IMG/VR virus record: IMGVR_UViG_3300034072_000926
Location: 229,621-293,620 of that record
Length of the DNA stretch: 64,000 bases
Source of the DNA: a virus
Reading direction: 5' to 3' (one strand)
In this document: positions 15,271 through 60,155 of the stretch, piece after piece
Layout of the letters: each line of letters starts with the position of its first letter
Numbering within the stretch: the first letter of the stretch is position 1
Translations under genes and position numbers: made by a program
Notes under the pieces: model-generated
What the model was told of the DNA's origin: nothing
Databases searched by the model: none
Seen by the model: only the letters and a program-made list of their open reading frames with translations

Positions 15271-15582
15271 TCAGCACCAAATTAGTTTGAACATCAGAGC
15301 GTCGTCAAGTTTCTCAAAATACCAGACAACCTCATATTCTCGGTAATAATTGTCAACGTCCCAATCGTATCCACCACCGGCCATAAAATCAATTATATCC
15401 GATTGGTCAGGATCTACGAACTTGACTATCCAAGCCCAACGACCTCTGTCTTCTTCGAAGAGCCACTTCATAGATTCAACATCTGATGACTCGAGTGCCT
15501 CTTTGTTGTGATTCATAAGAGCCCGACGTAGATCGTCGTCCATATCATGAAGGGTGTAGGCAACTTGATGATCCCAGAACAT
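15271..15582 (-). CDS. FKLTW-family small protein
   Basis: A 103-residue acidic protein that ends YFEKLDDALMFKLIWC. It carries a MKWLFEED helix mid-way and an aromatic strand (YEVVWYFEK) before the signature. It starts the run of adjacent paralogues and is followed by the glycosyltransferase with no intergenic space. Function unknown. Confidence 0.72.
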   Translation of the reverse strand: MFWDHQVAYTLHDMDDDLRRALMNHNKEALESSDVESMKWLFEEDRGRWAWIVKFVDPDQSDIIDFMAGGGYDWDVDNYYREYEVVWYFEKLDDALMFKLIWC

Positions 15583-15583
15583 G

Positions 15584-15832
15584 TCACATCCACGTTAGCT
15601 TGAACAACATTGCGGAATTATCATCCCAAATGTCGATATAGAATATCAGATAGGTATGTAGGCCCTCTCCTAGATCACGCTGCTCATGCAAAGCATAATC
15701 GTCATACTTGATATTGCGCTGATCCAGCCATTCCTTAACCACTGGATTGAGTCTTAGATCAAAATCAGCCGGGTCATCAGGATGGGCAAAGTTATGCCAA
15801 TCGTAGAGAGGTTTACGAAGCTGGAAAATCAC
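15584..15832 (-). CDS. FKLTW-family small protein
   Basis: An 82-residue protein with the family layout: helix VKEWLDQRNIKYDDY, strand TYLIFYIDIW, then DDNSAMLFKLTWM at the end. The start overlaps the QueD-like gene's stop by 4 bases. Function unknown. Confidence 0.75.
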   Translation of the reverse strand: MIFQLRKPLYDWHNFAHPDDPADFDLRLNPVVKEWLDQRNIKYDDYALHEQRDLGEGLHTYLIFYIDIWDDNSAMLFKLTWM

Positions 15833-16200
15833 TTCTTGACCGGATACTCAGCAAAGCTTCCGTTCTCACCGTCTTCGCTCACCTCAATAGTGATGTGACG
15901 ATTAGGGAACTTTGTGGTGATCTCAGCATAGAGTGCATCACTGATCATTTCACAGGACTTATAATCCAGTTCGAGGGTGCCGTTGCCGTAGAGGCTTTCG
16001 AGCCAACGCTTGAACTGAATGAACTCCAGGTCGCGATCATCATGGAACACTTCAATCCAGACCTTGAACTTGAACATATGACGATGGTCATAGCCAAGGA
16101 ACTTCACGTCTGCGAGGTTCGGGTCTGTTAGTGCGGCGGGGTATTTGTGGACACCTTCTTTTGCGAACGTGACCCAAATCATCTTAAAGTCTTCTGTCAT
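15829..16200 (-). CDS. QueD-like T-fold protein (6-carboxytetrahydropterin synthase-like)
   Basis: The 123-residue protein fits the T-fold layout of QueD/PTPS. A first histidine (H18) is followed by an HxH pair (H39, H41 in YDHRHMFKFKV). DLEFIQFKRWLE corresponds to the DF-x-x-LK helix, DYKSCEMISDALYAEI to the N-x-A helix, and an IEVSED strand (E107) to the substrate-binding glutamate. The catalytic cysteine expected between the first His and HxH is not visible, so activity is uncertain. FolE and QueE nearby would supply its pathway context. This call rests on motif reading and could be wrong. Confidence 0.5.
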   Translation of the reverse strand: MTEDFKMIWVTFAKEGVHKYPAALTDPNLADVKFLGYDHRHMFKFKVWIEVFHDDRDLEFIQFKRWLESLYGNGTLELDYKSCEMISDALYAEITTKFPNRHITIEVSEDGENGSFAEYPVKK

Positions 16201-16237
16201 GCTCTCTTTATAGCAAAACAGGTGACAGCGAGCAATA

Positions 16238-16570
16238 TTATCTGGAGAGCTTATTGATCAAGGCAGCGACTAGAAGTCTGCGATACACTGAGAATCGCTT
16301 CAAAGTGGGATTGAGGAAGATACGGATACCCCAATGATAATGGCTGACAATGGGTGCAGCCTTTTGATTCTTCCGCTTTCTCACACTTTGTCTGTCAACT
16401 GGATTATACTCAGACTTTATGACTGGCTCATGAACAATCATGAAGGCGCCGGGAATGAAGCGGTGCATTATAGAGTAGATGCGCTTATACTCTTCAAAAG
16501 TGGTGTGCATCTTGAGAAATAGGTGATCAGGATGTCTGCCACCCGAATAGTTGGTAATATCTTGAATCAC
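16238..16570 (-). CDS. Hypothetical protein
   Basis: A 110-residue basic protein with no recognised family, lacking the FKLTW ending though it sits inside that cluster. It starts at a GTG overlapping the stop of the preceding gene (ATGTGA), so it is probably translated by coupling. Its C-terminus is rich in Arg/Leu. Confidence 0.55.
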   Translation of the reverse strand: MIQDITNYSGGRHPDHLFLKMHTTFEEYKRIYSIMHRFIPGAFMIVHEPVIKSEYNPVDRQSVRKRKNQKAAPIVSHYHWGIRIFLNPTLKRFSVYRRLLVAALINKLSR

Positions 16571-16776
16571 ATCCAGGTCAACTTGAAAAACATTGCATCC
16601 TTGGGATTAGGAATCTGAATATACGCTCTTTGATCCATGAAACCCAGACTTAGGTGATATTTGATGCCATTACGATACAACCAAGAGTAGAACTGGCCAC
16701 TCAAGGTTCTTACCTTAGATTCCTTGACCACGATATAGGTATAGTGATCATCTTCTCGCAATTCAAAGGTCGTCAT
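16567..16776 (-). CDS. FKLTW-family small protein (short)
   Basis: A 69-residue member with helix FYSWLYRNGIKYH, strand RAYIQIPNP and the end KDAMFFKLTWM. It is one of the shortest members and so close to the minimal domain. ATGA overlap with the upstream paralogue. Confidence 0.75.
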   Translation of the reverse strand: MTTFELREDDHYTYIVVKESKVRTLSGQFYSWLYRNGIKYHLSLGFMDQRAYIQIPNPKDAMFFKLTWM

Positions 16777-17009
16777 AGCCAGGTCATCTTGAACAGTATG
16801 GCGTGATTATCATCGGGAAAGTTTAGCTCAACGAGACGGTATGATACCACTCGTCCAGAGAACAGAATGCCTAGGTCGTTACACCATTCGGCAACTTCTT
16901 CATCTAAGACAGGAAACCAGCTTCCTTCACCTTCTCGATCAATTGTGCATCGAGTCACGAAGCCAGCGTCTTTGTTCTCTTTGCAATGAGTTTTGACATA
17001 GAGCTTCAT
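16773..17009 (-). CDS. FKLTW-family small protein
   Basis: A 78-residue member: an N-terminal strand (MKLYVKTHC), helix VAEWCNDLGILFSG, strand YRLVELNFP, and the end DDNHAILFKMTWL. ATGA overlaps at both ends. Confidence 0.75.
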   Translation of the reverse strand: MKLYVKTHCKENKDAGFVTRCTIDREGEGSWFPVLDEEVAEWCNDLGILFSGRVVSYRLVELNFPDDNHAILFKMTWL

Positions 17010-17356
17010 GCGAGACCCTTAAAACCGAGACGATCGTTAGCGACGCGACGATCAAAATGGCCAAGGAAGATATTCTTGGAAGGTATATTCCAGGCTAGAA
17101 CGAAATGTCGAGCAGTCTTGAGATCTTTGAATTTCAAGTAGCTTTCTTTGCGACCCTTGGCTCTGTTCTGATACTTGACCTCGACAACGTGTTGAGTCTT
17201 GGCTACGCCATTGGCTTCTAGCCAGCGTTCCAGGTCGGGATTCATCTCACGTTTCCAACCACTGCCATAGATCCTCATGTTGTTAGTGGCCTCGGATCCT
17301 TGAACCCAACGCCAATGAAACCGACGATCAAGTATGATTGAAATCTCTATATCCAT
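17006..17356 (-). CDS. Diverged FKLTW-family protein with C-terminal extension
   Basis: A 116-residue member with helix LERWLEANGVAKTQH, a strand (HVVEVKYQ), then a variant signature LKTARHFVLAW followed by about 27 extra residues. The Lys of FKL is replaced by Val. It overlaps the upstream paralogue by 10 bases. Confidence 0.65.
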   Translation of the reverse strand: MDIEISIILDRRFHWRWVQGSEATNNMRIYGSGWKREMNPDLERWLEANGVAKTQHVVEVKYQNRAKGRKESYLKFKDLKTARHFVLAWNIPSKNIFLGHFDRRVANDRLGFKGLA

Positions 17357-17595
17357 GTCAACTTGAATAGCATCGCGTCTTTCAAGCTGTCAAAATAGAT
17401 TGCAGAAACCTTGCTAAATGGAGCCTCGCCATACCAATATTCGAGGTTCTGATCTTTCAGCCATTCCTCAATATCCTCATTGAGGCGATAGGTCTTACCG
17501 TAATAGGGATCAGCAGAACTCTTCCATCGACTGTCGAGGTGACGATGGCGACCGTCCAACATAACGAGATGTTTGTTTGTGAACATTATAGCCAC
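17347..17595 (-). CDS. FKLTW-family small protein
   Basis: An 82-residue member with helix IEEWLKDQNLEYWYG, strand VSAIYF and the end LKDAMLFKLTWI. The end of its signature overlaps the start of the next paralogue; it also overlaps the preceding gene by 10 bases. Confidence 0.75.
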   Translation of the reverse strand: MAIMFTNKHLVMLDGRHRHLDSRWKSSADPYYGKTYRLNEDIEEWLKDQNLEYWYGEAPFSKVSAIYFDSLKDAMLFKLTWI

Positions 17596-17798
17596 CTTAG
17601 TTTGAACATAGCGGCCTTCTTACGATCCGTTATGTGTATGATTGCTTTGAAATTGGATAAGAGACTAAAGACGTATTCAGTCTTCGTGACTACGAGCCAG
17701 AGTTTAACATCACGCCGCAAATGTAAAGAAGTCTGCCATTCATTGACTTGCTGAGACTCGATAAACTCTGATCCAAGTTCGAACAGAGTATCAAGCAT
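17586..17798 (-). CDS. FKLTW-family small protein
   Basis: With the ATG at 17798 (GGCTAAGG just upstream) the product is 70 residues and ends DRKKAAMFKLRWL. A longer start at 17852 would lie inside the glycosylase gene. Its start overlaps the last codons of the DNA glycosylase gene by 8 bases. Confidence 0.7.
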   Translation of the reverse strand: MLDTLFELGSEFIESQQVNEWQTSLHLRRDVKLWLVVTKTEYVFSLLSNFKAIIHITDRKKAAMFKLRWL

Positions 17799-18369
17799 CC
17801 TTAGCCTTCTTCGCGTAGGTATTCCAGATATGCAGATCGAAATCAGCAACACTCATACCCGACGCATCAGCGAGCTTGAGGAACTCTTTCTCCAATTCAG
17901 CATACTTCTTACCACCTGGTGTTCCGACCTGAGTCGTTAGTCCGAGGTCGCGCATGTGACGAATCACATGGGTATCAAGACAAGCGATGCGTTGATTGGC
18001 ACGGGTATGGAGCATGAAATAGCGGGCAGTCTTCGCCCCGGCTCCGTGGATCGCTTCGAGGTCTGCAATCGTGCAGGTCTTGAGATCAGTGCCGAGACTC
18101 TGACTGAATGCCCTAGATAATTTGTTGTATTGACCCAGCTTGGCGTCCTTGATCGAGTCAAGTAACATGCCACATTGTTCCAAGACAGCAACGACTTGGA
18201 AAGGTGTCTGGAAGTTGGGAAACTCTGCTCGACCAGCTGATAGAAAAGCTTCGAGGTGTTTAGCCTGAGTAACCGCTGTCTTTCCTGCTACACAGAGACA
18301 GAATAGCCAGAACTCTTGAAGCTCTGCATCGGTGCGGTCAAACTTTGTGACATCTGTTGGATCAATCAT
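17791..18369 (-). CDS. HhH-GPD family DNA glycosylase
   Basis: The 192-residue protein has the helix-hairpin-helix IHGAGAKTARYF (near residue 110) and a catalytic-type aspartate in ACLDTHVIRHM about 25 residues later, matching the HhH-GPD base-excision repair superfamily. It lacks the C-terminal iron-sulfur cysteines of endonuclease III, so it may be nearer the AGOG/AlkA types. The damaged or modified base it removes is unknown. Confidence 0.78.
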   Translation of the reverse strand: MIDPTDVTKFDRTDAELQEFWLFCLCVAGKTAVTQAKHLEAFLSAGRAEFPNFQTPFQVVAVLEQCGMLLDSIKDAKLGQYNKLSRAFSQSLGTDLKTCTIADLEAIHGAGAKTARYFMLHTRANQRIACLDTHVIRHMRDLGLTTQVGTPGGKKYAELEKEFLKLADASGMSVADFDLHIWNTYAKKAKDA

Positions 18370-18403: not shown

Positions 18404-18913
18404 CTATCCGATATGTTTCCAAGTTTTCCTTGATTTTACGTTCTTGATTGTAGAAACATTAACCGAGAATTTATCAGCCAACTGAACATTCGTTAGATTA
18501 GAATTCCTAATAAAACGGATATCATTTTCTTTGAGGACCGAACAACCGTTTCTTTCTCCGATTGCATTCCTACCTCGAGCAATACAGTCATCAGAATTGT
18601 CTTTATGCGTTCCGATAGATAAATGAGATGGTTTCACACATGATGGATTATCACAGGAATGTCGAATGAGCATTCCGATAGGTATGTTTCCGTTATGTGC
18701 TTCGTAAGACAATCGATGAGCAAAGATTTGCTTCCCGTTCAGGATTACAAATCCATAACCTTTTCTATCACGAGAGCCTGTCCAGATCAAGCAATCGTTG
18801 ACCTCTTTAGAGTTTAGATCTATTCTACATTTAGGAGAACAGACTTTCTTAGTCGAGTTGCTATTCACTTGCATTTCATTAGAACATACAAGACATTGGA
18901 CAGTGTAAGACAT
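18404..18913 (-). CDS. HNH homing-type endonuclease
   Basis: The 169-residue protein starts with a CxxC...CxxxC zinc-binding knuckle (C7, C10, C25, C29). An HNH_3-type core follows: HRLSYEAHNG, IRHSCDNPSCVKPSHLSIGT and KDNSDD, with H85, C87, C92 and H97. The C-terminal third resembles a DNA-binding helix-turn-helix (NVQLADKFSVNVSTIKNV). Its sequence is visibly more AT-rich than its neighbours, as expected for a free-standing homing endonuclease acquired by transfer. It follows a structured element at 18925-19027. No ribosome site is obvious before the ATG at 18913. Confidence 0.85.
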   Translation of the reverse strand: MSYTVQCLVCSNEMQVNSNSTKKVCSPKCRIDLNSKEVNDCLIWTGSRDRKGYGFVILNGKQIFAHRLSYEAHNGNIPIGMLIRHSCDNPSCVKPSHLSIGTHKDNSDDCIARGRNAIGERNGCSVLKENDIRFIRNSNLTNVQLADKFSVNVSTIKNVKSRKTWKHIG

Positions 18914-18924
18914 CGATCTTGAGA

Positions 18925-19027
18925 TTGAGGAGGTGGGGGCCACGCAAACCCCCGCAAGCTGCTCTGGAACTACCGTTCCTGCGCGAAGAAAGGAATCACC
19001 TCCTCAAGAGTAAATTGGGCAGCTTGC
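18925..19027 (-). ncRNA. Pseudoknot-forming structured element between clamp and HNH genes
   Basis: Two perfect inverted repeats interlock. 18925-18935 pairs with 18997-19007 (11 bp), and 18954-18962 pairs with 19019-19027 (9 bp), an A-B-A'-B' order that folds as a pseudoknot. Two hairpins sit inside: 18935-18939 with 18949-18953, and 18966-18970 with 18975-18979 (4-base loop). It lies between the sliding clamp and the HNH gene on the clamp transcript. No known RNA class fits fully. Confidence 0.5.
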
Positions 19028-19029
19028 TT

Positions 19030-19050
19030 TGTGGGGCACTAGGCCCCACA
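19030..19050 (-). terminator. GC-rich hairpin after the sliding clamp gene
   Basis: An 8-bp stem (19030-19037 with 19043-19050) with a 5-base loop follows the clamp stop by 4 bases. No U-tract follows, so termination is uncertain. Confidence 0.5.
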
Positions 19051-19054
19051 CTCA

Positions 19055-19810
19055 TTACTTCTTGCGAGCAGGAAGAATGAACTTGTATTCGGCAACACCC
19101 GAAGCCATCGTGATCTGCAGAGCGCCACGGCTCGAGAACTGAAGCTTGAGGTTTTCGTCAGCACCCAGCTTGAGGATCTTCAGCACTGGATCAATGCCCC
19201 AGTGAAGATCGCCACCCAGGTCACCCGAGACATCGTCAGCGATGGTTAGGTAAGCGCGGTGCATGGACGAACCTTCGTCGCCGATGTAGAAGCGCAGCTC
19301 GTTCTTGCCTTCTTCGTTCTTGACGGTCTTGACCATGAAGAAGTTTTCGAAGGTGCTATACAGACCTGCAAGAGCCTGCAGTTCCTTGAGCTTGCTGGCC
19401 GAAGGATCAACCTCGACGTCCCAGGTCGTGCCCAGGAACTTAGCCTGGTCAGGAATCAGATCCTTCGACATCAGACGGTAAGCTGCATTGCTCTTGGTGT
19501 TCTTGTTGTTGAACACGATTTCCTCAGGGGTATCAACGCCACCACGATCGCGACGCTTAATGTCGACGGTCACCCCGTCGCCCTTGTAGAGAGCACTGGT
19601 AACCAGACCCTGCAGAAGACCAAGCTGCGACAGACCGAATTCACCCTTGAGGGCTGGTTCGACGGTGGTCAGCTCGCCCTTGACAATGACAGTGCGATCA
19701 TTGTCCATAGCTTCGATGATGGTCTTGTCATCAGTGCCGGTGATCTTCACCGTGTCGATGAAGCCAAGGCCACCAGTGTGCCTTACGATGTCCTGAAATG
19801 TTTCACGCAT
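19055..19810 (-). CDS. 45: DNA polymerase sliding clamp (gp45-like)
   Basis: The 251-residue protein has the length and two-fold domain pattern of T4-type processivity clamps (gp45 is about 228). It includes the acidic strand-rich segments FSSRGALQITM and GVAEYKFILPARKK at the C-terminus. It would encircle DNA as a trimer and tether the polymerase, whose gene lies just upstream on the same strand. A promoter lies at 19846-19874. Confidence 0.8.
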   Translation of the reverse strand: MRETFQDIVRHTGGLGFIDTVKITGTDDKTIIEAMDNDRTVIVKGELTTVEPALKGEFGLSQLGLLQGLVTSALYKGDGVTVDIKRRDRGGVDTPEEIVFNNKNTKSNAAYRLMSKDLIPDQAKFLGTTWDVEVDPSASKLKELQALAGLYSTFENFFMVKTVKNEEGKNELRFYIGDEGSSMHRAYLTIADDVSGDLGGDLHWGIDPVLKILKLGADENLKLQFSSRGALQITMASGVAEYKFILPARKK

Positions 19811-54900: not shown

Positions 54901-54985
54901 GCGCCTGTGGTGAAATTGGTAGACGCGCTGGTTTTAGGTACCAGTATCGAAAGATGTGGGGGTTCGAGTCCCTTCAGGCGCACCA
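54901..54985 (+). tRNA. tRNA-Leu (anticodon UAG)
   Basis: A full cloverleaf is seen: acceptor 54901-54907 with 54975-54981, D-arm TGGTGAAATTGGTAGACGC, anticodon loop TTTAGGT giving UAG, a long variable arm typical of Leu, TTCGAGTCC T-arm, and an encoded CCA (54983-54985). Confidence 0.92.
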
Positions 54986-55028
54986 CCCTTTAAAGCTTTA
55001 GATCGGATTACCGTTAGAAGGCTTTAAG

Positions 55029-55172
55029 ATGTCGAGCGATACTATTCTGCACGTTGTCAGCGCGTTTGCATTTGCTGGCATGATCTACTGGGGTTGGTCA
55101 CAGATTCCTCCCGAAGATCCTGAAATCGTTAAGGCCCGCGCCGAACACGGCAAGGTCGATTTGAACGACTAA
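55029..55172 (+). CDS. Small single-pass membrane protein
   Basis: A 47-residue frame starts MSSDTILHVVSAFAFAG with a short hydrophobic helix and an acidic tail (VDLND). AAGG lies 7 bases before the ATG. It lies between two tRNA genes. Confidence 0.55.
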   Translation: MSSDTILHVVSAFAFAGMIYWGWSQIPPEDPEIVKARAEHGKVDLND

Positions 55173-55300
55173 TGGACACCGTCCATAAAGTCTTGTTTGT
55201 GGTGTTAATCAGTTTAGGTGTGTTTCTCATCTGGGCAACATATCAATTAATTAAACCCACTACGTTCTATAATATCGATCCTTCTGAGGACGATATTTAG
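55172..55300 (+). CDS. Small single-pass membrane protein
   Basis: A 42-residue frame whose ATG shares a base with the previous stop (TAATG). It has one hydrophobic helix (about 7-23) and an acidic end (PSEDDI). Likely co-translated with the gene before it. Confidence 0.55.
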
Positions 55301-55304
55301 AATT

Positions 55305-55378
55305 GGTCCCGTAGCTCAGCTGGATAGAGCGTCTGCCTCCTAAGCAGAAGGTCACTGGTTCGAATCCAGTCGGGATCA
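55305..55378 (+). tRNA. tRNA-Arg (anticodon CCU)
   Basis: Acceptor 55305-55311 pairs with 55371-55377 (one G-U). The anticodon stem TCTGC/GCAGA holds loop CTCCTAA, giving CCU. The T-loop reads TTCGAAT. No CCA is encoded; it would be added by the host. Confidence 0.92.
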
Positions 55379-55386
55379 CAGATCGA

Positions 55387-56112
55387 ATGAAGATCTTCCC
55401 CGAAATCACATTTCATCACTTTCCCAAAGATAGGTCTTTGGTTGAGAAGGTGATTCGTAAATTCTACATTCCGGAATTTGCAAGGTTTCGTTCCATCGGT
55501 GGATATGAGAAATACTGCCGTAGGATGAAGAAGTCCTTTCCTGTCCGTTGGTTTATCAGCGATAGTCTACCCGACTTCTGGCACTTCAAAGTCAAACAGC
55601 CCTACTATAATGTAAGGGCTTGGTATCGTTATCGGTTCACCGAAAAGTATCATATCGTAAAGCTAGACGTCAAACCTGGCTATATGGATCCTGATGATCG
55701 CATCTTGCATGTGAACTTTCAGATCCTCAAAGACTTTGTTGAGATTGAGTTGGGTGCGATGCATGATGCATCAGAAGCCAAAGACAACGGCAAGATTCTA
55801 GGTTCGTTTTCTAAACTTTACCGAAAGTATAAGAAGAAGAACATTCGCAACCCGGAGGGCGGTGTTCAGTATTTGGATTGGGAGATTGCTGAGTCAGGTT
55901 CTTCCCATCAGGCACACGCGGCTGCTGAGAAGAAGGCAATTTACCTGTGGTGGACTGAAGAACGCCCTAATCGTCTTGACGTCTATGATAATCCATACAT
56001 GGATAATGAAACCAACTACAGGGCTATGAATCGTCTCGAGAGTTTCTATTACGAACAAGACCAAGAAATGCTAAAGCGTTTGATTGATATCAGAAGTAGC
56101 ATTTGGATGTAA
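55387..56112 (+). CDS. Hypothetical protein
   Basis: The 241-residue protein is basic and aromatic-rich ([12 protein letters not shown]). No family is recognised. It begins 9 bases after tRNA-Arg without a clear ribosome site and is followed by tRNA-Pro, so it is probably processed from the same transcript. Confidence 0.6.
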
Positions 56113-56119
56113 AAAGATA

Positions 56120-56148
56120 TTGCAATGCAGATTATCCATGTGTATAAA
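56120..56148 (+). promoter_or_regulatory. Promoter for tRNA-Pro, containing TATAAATA
   Basis: TTGCAA (56120-56125), a 17-bp spacer and TATAAA (56143-56148) match the tRNA-Leu promoter. The -10 extends to TATAAATA (56143-56150), the exact T4 late consensus, so it might serve at both stages. Confidence 0.6.
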
Positions 56149-56181
56149 TAAACACATAGAGCAGCACATTGCTTTATACCT

Positions 56182-56255
56182 CGGGGAGTAGCGCAGTCTG
56201 GTAGCGCGCTTGCTTTGGGAGCAAGATGTCGCAGGTTCGAATCCTGTCTCCCCGA
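56182..56255 (+). tRNA. tRNA-Pro (anticodon UGG)
   Basis: Acceptor 56182-56188 pairs with 56248-56254. Anticodon stem CTTGC/GCAAG holds loop TTTGGGA, giving UGG. The T-arm is GCAGGTTCGAATCCTGT. No CCA is encoded. Confidence 0.92.
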
Positions 56256-56344
56256 CATAGTTGAAGTGGTCCCACTGACGCAAGTCATGCACCCTCAACC
56301 CTCCTAGGCCAGTTGGTCGGATTAGTCCCACCCATTGAGCTGGA

Positions 56345-59508: not shown

Positions 59509-60155
59509 AAGCTGATCATCTTATTGAGGATAGTTGCTATATCCTCAATAGAGACATCGTCGAACTTGTCCCAGTCGACACGCATTACTCGGCCTTCCGA
59601 GATTTTCAGAACCTTCAGATTAAACAGACCTAGAACGAGGATCATATCTCGTTCATGAATGCTCGACAGACGAGCATCTTTTTCTAGCATCTTCGCTAGA
59701 CCCTTACGAGTCCGGTTCCATCGGATGCGAATACTCTCTCGACATTTCTGCCAGCTTTCGACCATGCGCTTCGAATGTGCATCGAACTCTCGAAGCTTCA
59801 TTTTTTGCTCACGATCATACTGAGCTTTGCGCCGGACGATATTATCCTCTTCGGATTTAATGGCCTGATCAGCTTCTTCACTATAGATTCGAACCGCCAT
59901 GAGATAGCGGCGATAATAATGAAGCAACATACCGGTTTTATCGTTCAGCATCGCGGAACGACCGTTCGTTTCGAGGATATCAAGCTTGTAGGGCTCAAGG
60001 CCAAGGAGGTCAGCTAGACCTCCTTTCCTCGTATAACCTGCACTGAAAGGCTTGGGCTTCTTCTCTACTAGCTTATCCTCGATCTTGGAACTGCCGAACT
60101 CTAAGCGTCCGGCAATATCCTCGAGGAAGTCATCAGAGAAGAAGGGATCACTCAC
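59505..60155 (-). CDS. Hypothetical protein
   Basis: The 216-residue protein has a long basic helix in its middle (about 100-165) and a small C-terminal alpha/beta part. No function is recognised. It overlaps the upstream gene by 4 bases. Confidence 0.6.
   Translation of the reverse strand: MSDPFFSDDFLEDIAGRLEFGSSKIEDKLVEKKPKPFSAGYTRKGGLADLLGLEPYKLDILETNGRSAMLNDKTGMLLHYYRRYLMAVRIYSEEADQAIKSEEDNIVRRKAQYDREQKMKLREFDAHSKRMVESWQKCRESIRIRWNRTRKGLAKMLEKDARLSSIHERDMILVLGLFNLKVLKISEGRVMRVDWDKFDDVSIEDIATILNKMISF

Follow-up and report, generated by a model that had tools for sequence, protein, structure and literature searches.

We asked what is encoded by a set of interlocked inverted repeats lying between a sliding clamp gene and an HNH endonuclease gene of a phage. 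A preliminary description had read them as a pseudoknot beside the endonuclease gene and had proposed a ribozyme, an intron remnant, a regulatory RNA for the endonuclease or the endonuclease target site. The window analysed here, a stretch of 64,000 nucleotides, belongs to a 465-kb phage record, and its minus strand carries in order a family B DNA polymerase gene, a small ORF, the sliding clamp gene (19055..19810; 251 aa ORF), the element, an HNH_3 homing-type endonuclease gene (18404..18913; Pfam HNH_3 E = 4e-12; PHROG HNH E = 1e-31) and an Ogg-HhH-like glycosylase gene (17791..18369; Pfam PF22175 E = 5e-8). The position given earlier was correct: the element lies directly downstream of the clamp stop codon at 19055 and upstream of the HNH start at 18913. 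The HNH ATG stands directly 3′ of the motif AAGATCG and has no local Shine-Dalgarno (SD) sequence. The glycosylase gene, here the second gene 3′ of the element, is separated from it by 0–1 genes in relatives. Clamps of close relatives, which are IMG/VR contigs, share 75–88% identity with the window clamp (76–88% in L001–L007), and the named relatives are distant (clamp identity 48% for Sinorhizobium phage Phosso and 39% for Agrobacterium phage Atu_ph07). The window also holds a paralogue array 3′ of the glycosylase gene (15271–17852, minus strand), composed of tandem ORFs of ~70–120 aa, most with a C-terminal motif resembling (A/M)LFKLTW(M/L), and found in L001, L005, L006, L007 and L020 as well. 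Elsewhere it carries three tRNA genes (54901–56256, plus strand; Leu, Arg-CCT and Pro-TGG) and an inverted repeat at 60002–60027, AAGGAGGTC...GACCTCCTT, with an SD-like arm on either strand.

The perfect repeats were present as first described, in the interlocked order A-B-A′-B′ on the minus (sense) strand. The 9-bp pair consists of A (GCAAGCTGC; 19027–19019) and A′ (GCAGCTTGC; 18962–18954), and the 11-bp pair of B (TTGAGGAGGTG; 19007–18997) and B′ (CACCTCCTCAA; 18935–18925). Two further hairpins lie within, GGAAC/GTTCC (18966–18979) and GGGGG/CCCCC (18935–18953), both of which are conserved in relatives. A chance origin, judged unlikely before, is indeed unlikely yet possible: an interlocked 9- plus 11-bp pair within 110 nt appeared in 2 of 150 Markov-1 shuffles of the whole window, and the window itself contains a single occurrence. 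On the minus strand the region is more stably folded than its own shuffles (z = −3.2).

The element is conserved in nine related jumbo-phage contigs besides the window (10 sequences in total). Seven relatives carry a related sequence 3′ of the clamp gene or, if genes intervene, 5′ of the glycosylase gene, and a pattern scan of IMG/VR returned nine contigs, all from the family, of which two were new. A covariance model built from six members matched L001 (E = 7e-11), L007 (E = 1e-9) and the window (E = 2e-5); over the members, E values ranged from 2e-5 to 2e-28, with one strong match per genome. Weak second matches were seen in G003 and G006, and the G003 site appears to be coding. Phosso and Atu_ph07 had no copy, more distant clamp or glycosylase relatives were without it, and the named phages gave no DNA match to it. 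A pattern scan of genome contigs yielded 33 matches, approximately the estimated chance number, none of which was a good match to the covariance model. Rfam scans of the window, L003 and L024 returned no relevant ribozyme, riboswitch or intron match up to E = 10. The comparisons argue strongly for a conserved and undescribed RNA without an Rfam family, from a clade of uncultured jumbo phages.

There is likewise a strong case that the minus strand of 18914–19050 encodes a conserved structured RNA of the form P0-P1-P2-P3-AAGAUCG. The P0 hairpin (19030..19050) is found a few nucleotides 5′ of P1 in 10/10 members, its sequence varying while its pairing is kept. P1 is formed by A (5′ arm, 19019..19027) and A′ (3′ arm, 18954..18962), which covary between AAGCTGC/GCAGCTT and GCCTGC/GCAGGC. 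The inner hairpins constitute P2 and P3. P2 (GGAAC-GGTA-GTTCC in the window) shows compensatory changes, occurring as GGAAC/GTTCC, GAGAC/GTCTC, GGGAC/GTCCC and GGGTC/GATCC, and in P3 (GGGGG...CCCCC) the inner three pairs change jointly between lineages. Both MAFFT and the model alignment displace P2 and P3 between the two groups, so manual alignment was used for the stem arms. Permutation of the 3′ arms restored pairing 0 (P0), 27 (P1), 1 (P2) and 0 (P3) times per 5000, which are counts and not probabilities since the members are related. Distinct arms contained 12 G-U and 0 A-C wobbles in the minus-strand sense, and the RNA is therefore the minus-strand transcript. Around three of the helices the joining regions are invariant (TGAGGAGGTGATT, CG and AGAGC). 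At the 3′ boundary, AAGATCG (18914..18920, minus strand), the bases AGATCG do not vary among the nine members extending that far (the L002 contig ends before), and sequence similarity among members stops directly 3′ of this motif. We rejected AAGATCG as a general post-hairpin motif, as, outside this element, it followed hairpins at one L003 site and a few seemingly coding window sites. The family is new to Rfam and has compensatory support. In Phosso, the gap between clamp and glycosylase (L013:3741–3848) contains a TCGGCCC/GGGCCGA stem around AAGGCGGTGATTC, followed by a hairpin, which may be a distant version of the element; the P1-enclosed AGGCGGTGATTC is loosely similar, an ordinary SD precedes the following gene, and no relatives were found for the Phosso locus.

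B, in turn, is the RNA's invariant core UGAGGAGGUGAUU. The stretch between P1 and P2 that is invariant in all 10 sequences, TGAGGAGGTGATT, spans 18994..19006 on the minus strand (B, 18997–19007), and includes ten invariant bases, AGGAGGUGAU, that are an exact complement of the 3′ tail of bacterial 16S rRNA. For this pairing we used the standard bacterial tail sequence. The predicted duplex of core and tail has 13 pairs (−21.8 kcal/mol, versus −18.4 for B:B′ and −15.4 for A:A′), and ten-base matches to the tail occur three times in the window, the element core among them. By complementarity, the core is an extended SD. No ATG, GTG or TTG was found at normal spacing 3′ of it. A coding reading starting at a GTG within the core (GTG ATT ...), which is open in L003, L005, L006 and L020, was discarded, as in the window, L004 and L024 it meets a stop after no more than 3–10 codons. 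In thermodynamic folding the SD was just ~40–57% unpaired, and in several members weak alternative hairpins cover it.

How, then, does B′ fit this RNA? A 14-nt insertion, CCTCCTCAATCTCA (18920..18933, minus strand), occurs in the window genome only and is missing from the eight other members reaching the site, in which CCCC(C)A is directly joined to AGATCG (with C for A in L020). Together with the preceding CA the insertion makes up CACCTCCTCAA, that is B′, an inverted copy of the core ~60 nt away. Since B′ is confined to a 14-nt private insertion, conservation does not extend to the B/B′ pseudoknot. The conserved pseudoknot of the preliminary description accordingly survives in part: A/A′, B and the hairpins are kept in relatives and B′ is peculiar to the window. 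The covariance check that it had recommended across homologues gave covariation for A/A′ and none for B/B′, and no homologue retained the A-B-A′-B′ order with both helices, B′ being missing from every other member. Nested folding gave −60.1 kcal/mol with P1 kept versus −55.4 kcal/mol with B/B′ forced; forming A/A′ and B/B′ together would require a pseudoknot.

Taking B/B′ alone as a separate question, we lean slightly towards a functionless mutation caused by template switching during replication. B′ is found in one genome only, nine bases of the 14-nt insertion repeat the core in inverted orientation, and there is microhomology at both ends, with entry at a shared CA and exit near a shared AAGA, which suggests a template switch. 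On the other hand, B′ sits right on the HNH junction and covers the SD, as expected had it been selected to curb the endonuclease, and SD-masking structures frequently repress homing endonucleases of the T4 type (PMC3014915, PMC2988022). A conspicuous single-genome pseudoknot can come from a small private insertion.

We then compared the genes that flank the element. It is present without the HNH gene in L001, L003–L007 and L020 and is missing from the HNH relative L027; in L001, the closest relative, an 82-aa ORF takes the place of HNH. The expectation that relatives lacking HNH might also lose the element was therefore not borne out. Because such relatives keep the RNA, it can be neither the remnant of an intron nor a component of an endonuclease cassette, and its retention without HNH together with its absence from L027 makes it a resident of the phage clade. 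Among the relatives compared, the element was not found to travel with the HNH gene as a homing cassette. Of the regulatory RNA proposed for the endonuclease, what stands is a structured regulatory RNA 5′ of HNH, being conserved, covarying, strand-specific and found by the covariance model in 9 records; the part specific to the endonuclease falls away, as the element is kept without HNH and has other genes downstream. The upstream gene varies also (the clamp gene, a ValRS-like gene in L005 and L020, and others). The ValRS-like gene, at L005:6268–7659 and L020:3282–4670 between clamp and element, encodes a 463-aa valyl-tRNA-synthetase-like protein with HIGH- and KMSKS-type motifs that is much shorter than the bacterial enzyme and perhaps has no editing domain. 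A GIY-YIG endonuclease gene in L006 (6681–7502) has the same start point as the window HNH gene, directly after AAGATCG. On this comparison, the point 3′ of AAGATCG is a gene exchange site.

Start codons cluster at this boundary. In seven members (the window, L006, L020, L003, L005, L001 and L007) the first starts lie 0, 0, 1, 3, 3, 7 and 7 nt after AGATCG and 74–85 nt from GGAGG, an SD beyond normal spacing as in a split ribosome-binding site. The RNA structure between SD and AUG that such a site also implies is kept in relatives, P2, P1′ and P3 having compensatory changes. No SD of at least 4 bases was found at normal spacing in the first-start regions of 8/9 members, L004 being the exception, in sequences that are related and with crude ORF calls; in the window, 52/78 long ORFs have an SD at a start, as against 85/608 control ATGs (14%). 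Poor fits were L004 (96 nt, with its own SD), L024 (100 nt, without SD) and the ATG of ORF102 in L007 (151 nt away), and the close starts in L003, L005 and L007 open ORFs of 12–17 codons whose reality is doubtful. A possible bridging helix, UGAUU:GAUCG, is weak (−2.6 kcal/mol, two G-U pairs), invariant and free of covariation, and a match so short could be chance.

We tentatively interpret the element as a structured translation-initiation leader, either a split or a standby ribosome-binding site, acting on any gene placed 3′ of it, with B′ as a possible mask, and hold this reading with slightly less than even confidence. The region enclosed by P1 would display the extended SD, pair with the 16S rRNA 3′ tail and dock the 30S subunit, and initiation at an AUG 3′ of AAGAUCG would depend on GAGGAGGUGAUU. 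The ribosome might reach a start ~80 nt off because P1, P2 and P3 fold out the gap, as in a split ribosome-binding site, or alternatively by sliding from a standby site. Such a leader would serve any gene landed 3′ of it, the HNH gene here and GIY-YIG or other ORFs in relatives, and B′ of the window, as an anti-SD strand, could compete with 16S rRNA and lower HNH translation. Ribosome docking, gap bridging and repression by B′ are what we infer from sequence. It is conceivable, if rather doubtful, that the element represents a translation-initiation RNA of a novel phage class, with a four-helix fold, a 13-nt 16S-complementary core and a start ~80 nt away, which would give newly acquired genes an exchangeable platform for their expression. 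Should the leader work in the manner proposed, an SD could act from ~80 nt via a conserved fold, and the expression of genes that land at the exchange point without their own ribosome-binding site would be explained.

Among other readings, we regard as unlikely a regulated leader, in which a switch responding to a ligand or protein (such as an operator to which the clamp, the glycosylase or another phage protein binds) would toggle the SD between exposed and hidden and the SD would be in the core by happenstance. The invariant joining regions around the three helices resemble a binding core and the weak alternative hairpins over the SD would suit a switch, but 16S complementarity alone accounts for the invariant core, no Rfam riboswitch matched, and the variety of downstream genes points to no shared regulated pathway. 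Less probable again is a separate trans-acting small RNA that would bind the 16S 3′ tail and modulate or hijack host ribosomes, its location before genes being incidental. Such an RNA would be consistent with the constancy of the element while both flanking genes vary, with the stable end hairpins P0 and P3, and with the 13-pair 16S complementarity; yet no U-tract follows P3, and genes start directly at the 3′ boundary without their own SD in most members, which suggests a role in cis. We consider it improbable that the element is a DNA feature, a site that homing endonucleases recognize or insert at, with the RNA secondary: the window HNH and L006 GIY-YIG genes both start directly after AAGATCG and the locus swaps genes between relatives, but the compensatory changes and strand-specific G-U wobbles indicate selection at the RNA level, and members without any endonuclease keep the element. 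Finally, a self-cleaving ribozyme or intron remnant is very improbable, as the P1-core-P2-P1′-P3 order resembles HDV topology only superficially (no P3 adjoins P1′), the three members scanned against Rfam matched no ribozyme or intron family, and every relative has an uninterrupted clamp ORF, with no gene split.

Read as a translation-initiation leader, the element has partial counterparts in known systems. T4 genes 38 and 25 have split ribosome-binding sites, with gaps of 22 and 27 nt bridged by RNA secondary structure (PMC3014915, citing Nivinskas 1999; Malys and Nivinskas 2009). They share with the element an RNA structure between SD and start and a restriction to a clade within a phage group; the gap here, however, is ~80 nt and contains P2 and P3, and P1 additionally surrounds the SD, which is 10–13 nt long. 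In the tisB mRNA, whose ribosome-binding site is sequestered, standby involves a single-stranded region and an S1-binding pseudoknot (PMC7708055). There, as is proposed here, 30S is brought in by a structured leader at a long distance (~100 nt) from the start, whereas in our element the distant site itself would be an extended SD and most starts are SD-less. For the free-standing homing endonucleases Aeh1 mobE and T4 segB, SD-masking structures are described (PMC3014915, PMC2988022), and by analogy B′, an SD-complementary strand, could repress translation of a homing endonuclease; in mobE the masked ribosome-binding site is near the start, while masking here would act at 85 nt, via an interlocked helix. 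Long pairing with the 16S tail is also a property of the extended SD motifs of S. aureus (PMC13009471), which are proximal to the start codon, whereas the core described here is distant from it and lies within a conserved fold.
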